From: Oceanicola sp. 502str15
Lineage (GTDB): Bacteria; Pseudomonadota; Alphaproteobacteria; Rhodobacterales; Rhodobacteraceae
Direction of reading: 5' to 3'
Length of the DNA: 64,000 nucleotides
Assembly: GCF_024105635.1 (NCBI RefSeq)
Contig: NZ_WYDQ01000001.1
Coordinates: 2,666,001-2,730,000, forward strand
Translations under genes and position numbers: made by a program
Part shown: positions 54,628 through 55,917 of the stretch, one piece after another
Numbering within the stretch: the stretch's first letter is position 1
Layout: the number at the start of each line of letters is the position of its first letter
The notes under the pieces: model-generated
What the model saw: the letters and a program-made list of their open reading frames with translations, nothing else
The model's database searches: none
What the model was told of the DNA's origin: nothing

Positions 54628-55254
54628 ATGAAGACCAATCTCGTCATCGGCGTTCTCGCCATGGCCGCCGTCGTGGTGGCTTCCAACATCCTCGTCCAGC
54701 ACCTTCTGGGCGATTGGCTGACCTGGGGCGCGCTCACCTACCCCGTCGCCTTCCTCGTTACCGACACGATGAACCGCCTCTACGGCGCGCGCACCGCCCG
54801 CAAGGTGGTGGTCGCCGGCTTCCTCGTCGGCGTCGCCTGCTCCTTCGTCGGCTCGCAGATCCAGGGCGAGTTCGGCCCGCTGGTCACGCTCCGCGTGGCG
54901 CTCGGCTCCGGCCTCGCTTTTCTTTCCGCCCAATTGTTGGACGTTGCGGTCTTCGACCGGATGCGTGCGCGGGCATGGTGGCAAGCGCCGCTGGGCTCCA
55001 CCCTGGTCGGCAGCACCGTCGACACGGTGATCTTCTTCTCCATCGCCTTCGCCGCCACCTTCAACGGCATCGAGCCGGCCAACGTGCCGGGCTGGGCGCA
55101 GGAGGCGATTCCGCTTTTGGGGCAAGGCCCGGCGGCCCCGCTCTGGGTGTCGCTCGCGGTGGCCGACTGGGGCGTGAAGCTGGCGCTCGCGGCCCTCGCT
55201 CTGGTGCCCTTCCGCCTGCTGACCGCAAATCTCGCGGGTGCAGAAAAAGTTTGA
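54628..55254 (+). CDS. queuosine precursor transporter (VUT/YhhQ family)
   Basis: A 208-residue membrane protein with about six helices and the VUT family signature ALTYPVAFLVTDTMNRLYGA and SQLLDVAVFDR-type motif (SAQLLDVAVFDRMRA). It imports preQ0 or preQ1 for queuosine modification of tRNA. The start at 54628 lacks a strong Shine-Dalgarno site. The arfB leader begins at its stop codon. Confidence 0.88.
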   Translation: MKTNLVIGVLAMAAVVVASNILVQHLLGDWLTWGALTYPVAFLVTDTMNRLYGARTARKVVVAGFLVGVACSFVGSQIQGEFGPLVTLRVALGSGLAFLSAQLLDVAVFDRMRARAWWQAPLGSTLVGSTVDTVIFFSIAFAATFNGIEPANVPGWAQEAIPLLGQGPAAPLWVSLAVADWGVKLALAALALVPFRLLTANLAGAEKV

Positions 55255-55256
55255 CA
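55251..55256 (+). promoter_or_regulatory. possible -35 element of the arfB leader transcript
   Basis: A perfect TTGACA overlaps the transporter stop codon. No good -10 is visible 16-18 nt downstream, so the promoter call is tentative. Confidence 0.3.
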
Positions 55257-55302
55257 GGGGGAGCCTTCCTGATTCACGCTGAACTTGCGTTTTTCAACAG
55301 CT

Positions 55303-55318
55303 GAAAGGAGGTGATCCA
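55303..55318 (+). promoter_or_regulatory. extended Shine-Dalgarno site of the leader ORF
   Basis: GAAAGGAGGTGATCCA complements the conserved 16S rRNA 3' end over about 16 nt, far beyond the usual 4-7. The AGGAGG core is 7 nt from the GTG at 55319. Confidence 0.75.
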
Positions 55319-55375
55319 GTGTCGAGAGCTACATTGGAGAGAGGTGTCGGGACAACAGTGGAGGTTCGCTCGTAG
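55319..55375 (+). CDS. 18-residue leader peptide upstream of arfB
   Basis: GTG-initiated ORF encoding MSRATLERGVGTTVEVRS, ending in TAG. The extended Shine-Dalgarno match immediately upstream makes translation very likely. The peptide has no signal sequence or known motif. It ends 116 nt before arfB, with two hairpin/T-tract structures between. It probably acts as a regulatory leader or a ribosome-loading site; function is inferred. Confidence 0.55.
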   Translation: MSRATLERGVGTTVEVRS

Positions 55376-55385
55376 GGCTACCCCT

Positions 55386-55405
55386 GCGGCGTGAACGTCG
55401 CTTTT
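55386..55405 (+). terminator. first hairpin/T-tract after the leader ORF
   Basis: GCGGCG-TGAA-CGTCGC (one G-U pair) followed by TTTT, 10 nt after the leader stop codon. Short, so possibly an attenuator component. Confidence 0.4.
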
Positions 55406-55445
55406 GGCTGAGGTCTAACCGACCCCGCCTCCATTAAGTTCGATA

Positions 55446-55476
55446 GGGCCGTTCCGACATCCGGGGCGGCCCTTTT
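55446..55476 (+). terminator. terminator-like hairpin just before arfB
   Basis: GGGCCGTTCC (55446-55455) pairs with GGGGCGGCCC (55463-55472), ten pairs including two G-U, 7-nt loop, then TTTT. It lies 16 nt before the arfB ATG, in the position of an attenuator. Confidence 0.55.
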
Positions 55477-55491
55477 GACAGGAAAGAACAG

Positions 55492-55917
55492 ATGCCGATC
55501 AAGGTAAACGAGCAGATCACCATCGAGGATTGGGAAGTGAGCGAGGTCTTCACCACCTCGCAGGGGCCGGGCGGGCAGAACGTCAACAAGGTGGCCACCG
55601 CCGTCGAGCTGCGCTTCGCCGCCGCCAATTCGCCCAACCTGCCGCCGCCGGTCAAATCCCGCTTGCGCAGGCTCGCCGGGCGGCGCTGGACCGAGGGCGG
55701 CGAGTTGCTGCTGCTGGTGCAGGAAACCCGTTCACAGGCGCAGAACCGCGAGATCGCCCGCGAGCGGCTGGCCGAGCTGATCCGCAAGGCCTGCGAAAAG
55801 CCCAAGCGCCGCATCGCCACCCGCCCCACCCTCGGCTCCAAGAAGCGCCGCTTGAAGGCCAAGAAAGTGCGCGGCGAGGTCAAGGCCATGCGCGGCAAGG
55901 TCGACCCCGACGGGTGA
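55492..55917 (+). CDS. arfB: alternative ribosome-rescue peptidyl-tRNA hydrolase ArfB
   Basis: A 141-residue ArfB/YaeJ protein that hydrolyses peptidyl-tRNA on stalled ribosomes lacking a stop codon. The catalytic GGQ is at residues 27-29 (TSQGPGGQNVNKVAT), and the basic C-terminal tail that enters the empty mRNA channel (GSKKRRLKAKKVRGEVKAMR) is intact. AGGAAAG precedes the ATG. The unusual leader at 55251-55476 suggests control linked to ribosome availability. Confidence 0.93.
   Translation: MPIKVNEQITIEDWEVSEVFTTSQGPGGQNVNKVATAVELRFAAANSPNLPPPVKSRLRRLAGRRWTEGGELLLLVQETRSQAQNREIARERLAELIRKACEKPKRRIATRPTLGSKKRRLKAKKVRGEVKAMRGKVDPDG

Follow-up and report, generated by a model that had tools for sequence, protein, structure and literature searches.

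A conserved fold predicted around the translation unit of a probable rreR small mRNA between yhhQ and arfB in Rhodobacteraceae

Between a yhhQ-type gene and arfB, the gene of an alternative ribosome-rescue hydrolase, the genome of Oceanicola sp. 502str15 carries an 18-codon open reading frame (ORF) behind an unusually long Shine-Dalgarno (SD) sequence, and the question is whether this element is a leader that controls arfB or a small gene in its own right. The locus lies in a stretch of 64 000 nucleotides (the window; contig NZ_WYDQ01000001.1, positions 2 666 001 to 2 730 000), and all coordinates below refer to the forward strand of that stretch. The original prediction, made from the letters of the window, took the element for an arfB leader. 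We find that it is very probably rreR, one of the 'extended Shine-Dalgarno' small mRNAs. Two kinds of these, rreB and rreR, were reportedly described by Hahn et al. in 2017 (RNA Biol 14:1353, doi 10.1080/15476286.2016.1256534) as small mRNAs with a GTG start and a very long SD complementary to the 3' end of 16S rRNA, rreR encoding 18 amino acids in the Rhodobacter/Roseobacter lineage and rreB 14 in Bradyrhizobiaceae. Co-sedimentation of rreB with 30S subunits and an effect on its stability of turning the start codon into a stop codon are said to have been published, and its extended SD reportedly lowered rather than raised translation. We know of no settled role for rre genes, for all that they possess such an extreme ribosome-binding site. 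The 2017 study is cited in PMC7298713 and PMC7217052.

Directly before the GTG start at 55319 stands GAAAGGAGGTGATCCA (55303-55318), and the complementarity to the 16S 3' end covers 17 nucleotides (55303..55319; GAAAGGAGGTGATCCAG), one more than the roughly 16 first proposed. The proposed spacing is borne out, with the core GGAGG followed by TGATCCA (7 nt), the GTG and an 18-codon ORF of the rreR type (55319..55375, peptide MSRATLERGVGTTVEVRS) that closes with TAG at 55373-55375. Both the complementarity of at least 16 nt directly 5' of the start codon and the 18-codon ORF conserved in the Rhodobacter/Roseobacter lineage, by which rre genes are recognized, are present. The 16S tail CTGGATCACCTCCTTTCT, searched as part of a 48-mer, agrees at 100% with plasmid-borne rRNA genes in Rhodobacteraceae such as those of Alloyangia pacifica and Cereibacter sphaeroides. 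Because no 16S rRNA gene was found in the copy of the strain's own genome that was searched, which is listed as 100% complete, the 17-nt complementarity is judged on the tails of these relatives. An antisense 16S artefact was considered, GAAAGGAGGTGATCCA being the complement of the end of a 16S gene, and was rejected: what follows is a GTG and a conserved ORF, not rRNA, and Rfam shows no hit in the window at its gathering threshold.

A single copy of the 19-mer made up of the SD and start codon is present in the strain's own genome, and 72 of 120 Rhodobacteraceae genomes carry one each, while the reversed control pattern was found in none of the genomes listed in the same scan; on these counts the long SD match is not a chance occurrence. 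With a covariance model (R1) of 60 nt around the SD and early ORF, built from 34 pattern-carrying sequences, the element was detected in 97 of the 120 genomes, one per genome. Altogether 100 of the 120 genomes have it (72 by the exact pattern and 28 more by R1 only), including two with weak R1 matches (G104, E 2e-4; G088, E 3e-4, which has the exact pattern) and three (G014, G023 and G113) with the pattern and no R1 match, the ORFs of which differ in the two that were read. When a further set of 61 genomes was taken from the order, every one of them proved to belong to the same family, and the element is found in 59. In 68 aligned relatives, which had been picked by the SD pattern, the only variable sites are one A/G position and the G/A of the start codon; outside this selection shorter 16S matches occur. 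Conservation in relatives, on which the original prediction had staked its case, is therefore what we find, since the ORF, the long SD and the terminator are all kept across Rhodobacteraceae; by sequence comparison, the element is real and conserved.

For the structural analysis we started from 77 distinct Rhodobacteraceae-type loci, removed six without a recognized terminator tail (71 left) and then L033 and L035, in which the tail had been wrongly cut, and L003, to obtain an alignment of 68 relatives. RNAalifold predicts four helices in it. In P0, the SD core GGAGGUG (55307..55313 in the window) pairs with C(A/G)C(C/U)UCC, an internal copy of the 16S anti-SD sequence (CGCCTCC, 55426..55432) situated immediately 5' of the terminator, as it also does in the single-sequence fold of the window. 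P1 joins the end of the SD and the start codon (UCCAGUGU in the alignment; TCCAGTGT, 55315..55322) to codons 5-7 (ACATTGGA, 55331..55338), and is found by RNAalifold, pair counts and the single-sequence fold. Px pairs UCGG (55347..55350) with CCGR (CCGA, 55419-55422), and the fourth helix is the terminator stem. Over the whole structure 97.6% of 1900 cells are paired, a share that is 94.2% for shuffles and falls to 40-55% when the registers are slid, and the structure exceeds all 500 shuffles on five measures as well as all slid registers, with structure and pair counts derived from one and the same alignment. P0 is paired in 98.7% of cells, the common variants of its 3' strand, CACCTCC, CGCCTCC and CATCTCC, all pairing with wobble where needed; it varies on the 3' side only because the SD is invariant in the rows chosen. 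GAGGUG within the ORF, tried in place of the SD as the partner of CACCUCC, gave 82% paired cells, no better than shuffles, and was rejected. P1 is paired in 97.4% of cells, with four of its eight pairs invariant and one showing double changes, and Px in 96.0%, with double changes at all four pairs.

Two further helices, P2 and P3, lie in columns that MAFFT aligns poorly, and were for this reason assessed by duplex energies of own versus permuted partners. P2 brings codons 12-16 (55352..55366) together with a downstream partner (within about 55390-55410 in the window), at -13.7 for own and -9.6 for permuted partners (z = -13), the own partner being better than those of the eight nearest relatives in 54 of the 68 sequences (p = 7e-9). 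It is weak in the window itself, where it reaches -7.9 kcal/mol and has four pairs in the single-sequence fold. P3 encloses the end of the ORF including the stop codon (55366..55377, with 55381-55393), at -12.3 versus -8.2 (z = -13.9), and the own partner is the better one in 60 of 68 (p = 1e-9). Two control pairings gave z = 0.5 and -0.7 in the permutation test, and a control pairing gave p = 0.13 in the comparison with nearest relatives. Folded by itself, the RNA of the window forms P0, P1, Px, P3, the terminator and a short P2, with an energy of -87.1 kcal/mol (z = -4.6), and none of 200 shuffles is as stable. These results support a fold that covaries and encloses the entire translation unit, in which the SD core, the start codon, codons of the ORF and the stop codon would all be paired. 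Such a conserved enclosing fold appears to be new; among open-licence papers, no title or opening of an abstract was found that concerned this fold or an arfB leader.

The ORF itself is constrained in where it ends. A set of 76 distinct ORFs from 87 loci was assembled on hairpin homology, irrespective of length; 73 of them have 18 codons and three have 20. Codon 19 is TAG in 34, TGA in 28 and TAA in 11, and it is never TGG, although the column frequencies predict 13 such cases, in statistics that ignore the relatedness of the sequences. A search string recovered 18 of 34 loci, 15 of them with 18 codons and L226 with 12; two loci (L236 and L240) have 18 codons only if a shifted ATG is taken, as read by eye. 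The claim about the stop position rests on the 76-ORF set because inclusion in our codon table of 72 ORFs required 18 codons and a Leu-Glu near codons 6-7, which biases the table towards a fixed stop and these residues. Leu6-Glu7 is accordingly constant in the table, and Ser2 (65 of 72), Gly11 (69) and Thr12 (68) are near constant. Mean entropy hardly depends on the position within the codon (0.83, 0.90 and 0.88), and codons 13-18 look neutral in 60 close pairs, with 38 synonymous and 73 non-synonymous changes (0.34 versus 0.31 expected). We read this as selection that acts on RNA pairing and on the site at which translation stops.

The element also has the predicted signals of its own transcription unit. 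A -35-like TTGACA (55251..55256, at -52 in the window) overlaps the yhhQ stop codon, and 58 of 71 relatives have the same hexamer, with at most one mismatch, upstream of the SD, mostly between -47 and -49, where 12.3 are expected from shuffles. A possible -10, CACGCT, lies at 55275..55280, with transcription expected to start at about 55287; when relatives are aligned on TTGACA, an A recurs as the second base of this hexamer and a T as the sixth. At the other end lies an intrinsic terminator (55446..55476) consisting of an 11-bp stem (55446-55456 with 55462-55472), a 5-nt loop and TTTT, 15 nt before arfB. Its stem shows double changes at all nine aligned pairs in the 68 relatives, and the own partner beats those of nearest relatives in 62 of the 68 sequences; because the stem varies among relatives in a pair-keeping way, the terminator-type hairpin is real, with one pair more than the ten originally counted. 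The first of the two hairpins with T-tracts in the original prediction (55386-55401, TTTT) does not survive as a terminator, given that the TTTT is present only in the window (L001) and L002 of the 68 rows; the minimum-energy fold of the window uses these bases in other helices. A simple scan of the window for sigma-70 consensus promoters reported none and did not list the terminator at 55446-55476, because it demands a sigma-70 -10 and five T in a window of eight. From the conserved -35 and the covarying terminator we predict a separate short transcript of about 190 nt, as expected of an rre gene, with its own promoter and terminator.

Does this unit nevertheless serve arfB? The downstream gene (55492..55917) is arfB (NF006718 equivalog, 176 bits against a cut-off of 100; PF00472), and the upstream neighbour (54628..55254) is a yhhQ-type queuosine precursor transporter (TIGR00697, 99 bits against a cut-off of 51; PF02592); a gene for a phytase-like protein also lies upstream. 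ArfB was found in 111 of the 120 Rhodobacteraceae genomes. Among the 100 genomes with the element, arfB lies on the same strand within 500 nt downstream in 76 (53 of the 72 found by pattern, 23 of the 28 found by model only) and at 0.5-5 kb in another seven, making 83 within 5 kb. In the remaining 17 it is elsewhere on the same contig (5), on another contig of a draft (10) or without a match (2), and for this reason only five of the 17 separations are certain. At the level of loci, arfB is downstream in 60 of 71 and absent from the examined flanks (73 to 3547 nt) of the other 11. The gap between terminator and arfB in the 60 is <40 nt in 26, 40-99 nt in 18, 100-249 nt in 12 and at least 250 nt in four, the values for L033 and L035 being unreliable owing to the wrongly cut tail. 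Distances of 0.56-0.95 kb are seen in L091, L103, L108 and L155. Near loci of the 14- or 25-codon types, no arfB match was found in downstream flanks of 0.1 to 8 kb, in which a distant ArfB could be missed.

The original prediction saw in this arrangement an attenuator, ribosomes occupying the ORF choosing between termination at 55446-55476 and readthrough into arfB. The frequent position of arfB shortly downstream speaks for it, as do the covarying terminator and the gaps below 40 nt, which leave scant room for a separate arfB promoter and make readthrough into arfB likely in those loci. The linkage, strong as it is, is not special to arfB, because yhhQ is kept at least as faithfully: among 17 loci with 2.5 kb available on each side, yhhQ is retained in 16, arfB in 13 and the phytase-like gene in 12. 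This is not the constant linkage to a regulated gene that an attenuator should display, and in two Hyphomonadaceae loci (L119 and L166) arfB lies upstream of the element on the opposite strand, making a leader relation impossible there; the genomes without arfB within 5 kb downstream and the other-clade flanks without an arfB match point the same way. In the window, moreover, the stop codon stands 70 nt before the terminator stem, beyond the reach of a terminating ribosome. No conserved antiterminator excluding the terminator emerged from the one candidate design tested, in which CYGGCCC pairs with the 5' arm of the terminator: it fits its own partner worse than permuted ones (z = +3.1; nearest-relative p = 0.43). 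Nor is there support for a pairing between the anti-SD strand and the 3' arm of the terminator (z = -0.9). As these tests revealed no conserved coupling to the terminator, attenuation of arfB is possible but unsupported, and we consider it quite unlikely. The arfB leader claim is partly supported and its role not established: the conserved ORF, SD and terminator and the frequent arfB downstream stand, while the element's own -35, the at least equally tight linkage to yhhQ and the lack of support for an antiterminator tell against it. What holds of the proposed ribosome-sensing design is that the architecture looks like something that reads ribosome binding; a feedback switch onto arfB has no support.

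We regard as the probable explanation an autonomous gene of the rre kind (rreR) between yhhQ and arfB, whose transcript folds so as to mask itself and is opened by the 16S tail of a 30S subunit for one short translation event. Several observations weigh against it. The 16S match shrinks to 11 nt in L018, L212 and L241, the ORF of L226 has only 12 codons, and no good P0 3' strand is present in L226 or L227, all as read by eye. Support for P0 consists of one-sided wobble changes and the single-sequence fold, with only z = -1.6 by permutation, and Px does no better than with the partners of nearest relatives (p = 0.59). Finally, codons 2-12 carry an excess of synonymous changes in the 60 close pairs (41 versus 19 non-synonymous; 0.68 versus 0.31 expected), which could reflect selection on the peptide or freedom of unpaired third positions. 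If the former, the element might be a small-protein gene with the 18-residue peptide as its product and a long SD that merely ensures good translation, and the near-constant Ser2, Gly11 and Thr12 and the fixed start and stop would fit. Conservation of the peptide, which the original prediction had proposed to check, thus applies to its length, may extend to codons 2-12 and fails for codons 13-18, which show no peptide selection; moreover, the bases that are conserved fall in P1, Px, P2 and P3, entropy hardly differs among the three codon positions, and the extended SD of rreB reportedly lowered its translation. PMC7217052 reports that the 18-amino-acid SP-3 of Dinoroseobacter shibae and the 14-amino-acid SP-1 of B. 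japonicum, probably RreR and RreB, are unstructured. We therefore find the small-protein account rather doubtful. A 30S decoy or base-pairing small RNA (sRNA), which would hold 30S subunits or turn its freed CACCUCC on the SDs of other mRNAs with translation as an incidental matter, draws on the 17-nt 16S match, the internal anti-SD strand, the classing of the relative CC2171 as an sRNA in Rfam and the precedent of SisA-D, Caulobacter sRNAs that act through anti-SD 10-mers according to PMC12559287. It seems improbable in view of a stop kept at a fixed codon with all three triplets, which a decoy does not need, and of the other clades looked at by eye, where no such anti-SD strand was seen and ORF codons pair downstream.

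According to the autonomous rre-type gene that we favour, the SD core of the free RNA would be masked by the internal anti-SD copy (P0) and the start codon held in a hairpin (P1), with the second half of the ORF and its stop codon paired downstream (P2 and P3). The SD would be so long because it must complement the 16S tail and the RNA's own structure simultaneously. The 3' tail of a free 30S subunit, beginning at an exposed GAAA, may then displace P0 and P1; computed duplex energies are -32.8 kcal/mol for the SD with the 16S tail and -11.2 for P0 alone. One ribosome would translate the 18 codons and halt at a fixed place inside P3, so that the translation event and the stop position would count for more than the last third of the peptide. 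Shape and life-span of the transcript would follow 30S binding, in line with what is reported for rreB, and in Rhodobacteraceae transcription that reads through the terminator probably reaches arfB as well. A bolder version, which we offer only tentatively and hold to be doubtful, is a ribosome-availability switch with the 16S tail as its ligand, in which the 17 bases match both 16S rRNA and the RNA's own masking strands, the ORF serves as a timed pass of one ribosome and the opened state favours arfB in Rhodobacteraceae. If true, free 30S subunits would be read out as strand displacement by an RNA family spread over Alphaproteobacteria.

How far the arrangement extends was surveyed by scanning the contigs of named genomes with the 19-mer, which matched at least 119 stretches. 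Among the 80 matches listed, four are outside Alphaproteobacteria by name, four are named only as Proteobacteria/Pseudomonadota, and the other 72 we take to be Alphaproteobacteria from the organism names. What follows the SD is mostly a very short ORF whose length is typical of the clade, with 18 codons in Rhodobacteraceae and 14 in Bradyrhizobium types; other groups mostly have 20-26, and the outliers range from 11 to 59. Bradyrhizobium-type loci (L114, L121, L126, L127, L141, L151, L153, L170, L185 and L186) have a 14-codon ORF, MS-x-x-KRCHLAGIAR, in which CTCGCTGG is complementary to a downstream CCAGCGAG. Codons 5-14 are unchanged in seven distinct ORFs, synonymous sites included, and all three stop codons occur; as RCHLAGIAR in the peptide had served to select the loci, codons 6-14 were free to vary only silently. 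The 25-codon-type clade shows covariation of the same kind, pairing ORF codons 5-11 with a stretch before a GACAATG-like anchor (z = -8.0), and in the 44 of 55 sequences with the conserved anchor that entered the test the own partner beats those of nearest relatives in 36 (p = 6e-5). RNAalifold, applied to 54 sequences of this clade, yielded just three pairs, since the variable middle defeated alignment by MAFFT.

Other loci put the extended SD in a different setting. L136 and L164 (Azospirillum), L175 and L113 (a Geminicoccaceae metagenome-assembled genome, MAG) have it before ORFs of 57-59 codons with a signal-peptide-like start (e.g. MSHGASPVVAALFGLAALLTAGIANA), followed by a hairpin and a T-run, which suggests a different use of the hyper-SD. 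Two Phycisphaerales MAGs (L099 and L157), a Nitrosomonadales MAG (L144) and a Deltaproteobacteria MAG (L168) combine an extended SD with an ORF of 11 to 24 codons, and these cases outside Alphaproteobacteria could be real or misbinned contigs.

Compared with trpL-type leader-peptide attenuators, the element is alike in its short ORF, terminator and downstream gene and differs in having no supported antiterminator and no run of control codons, and in existing without a nearby downstream gene; it cautions against taking the arfB neighbourhood as a sign of attenuation. Nothing in the 64-kb window matches Rfam at gathering threshold, and a permissive search of 55200-55520 retrieves RF01867, the Caulobacter sRNA CC2171, at 55295-55472 (41 bits, E = 1.7e-7). 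The match runs end to end (model positions 1-159). Shared with CC2171 are CAACA and the extended SD with its GUG at the 5' end and the terminator at the 3' end, the SD and terminator in these places being characteristic of the family. The 41 bits are below the gathering score of 75, and the alignment passes over most of the middle, where the ORF and the helices lie; the element therefore appears to be a distant, sub-threshold relative. CC2171 matches at E <= 0.001 occur in 49 of 240 genomes of the class, seven of the 240 above the family cut-off, with scores of up to 90 bits in other Alphaproteobacteria, and among 14 control genomes only Caulobacter vibrioides matches. CC2171 has been predicted in Mesorhizobium huakuii as well (PMC5596092), and Rfam 15 lists it among the families with a structure improved by R-scape (PMC11701678), so a partly covarying structure was already known for the CC2171 family. 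SisA-D, likened here by their description in PMC12559287, are also small RNAs with an anti-SD sequence, whereas the anti-SD strand of the present element pairs with the RNA's own SD.

Placed beside these systems, the conserved fold would make rre genes a testable device: it predicts which bases cover the SD, the start codon and the stop codon, gives a reason for so long an SD, and predicts that the stop position outweighs the end of the peptide. It would also join CC2171, filed in Rfam as a 'non-coding' sRNA, with translated mini-mRNAs. With rreB and rreR themselves, as reportedly described by Hahn et al. 2017, the element shares the long 16S-complementary SD, the GTG start and the tiny ORF of 18 or 14 codons. 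The present analysis is the source for the fold in which the SD and the start and stop codons are masked, for the position between yhhQ and arfB, and for the relation to CC2171.

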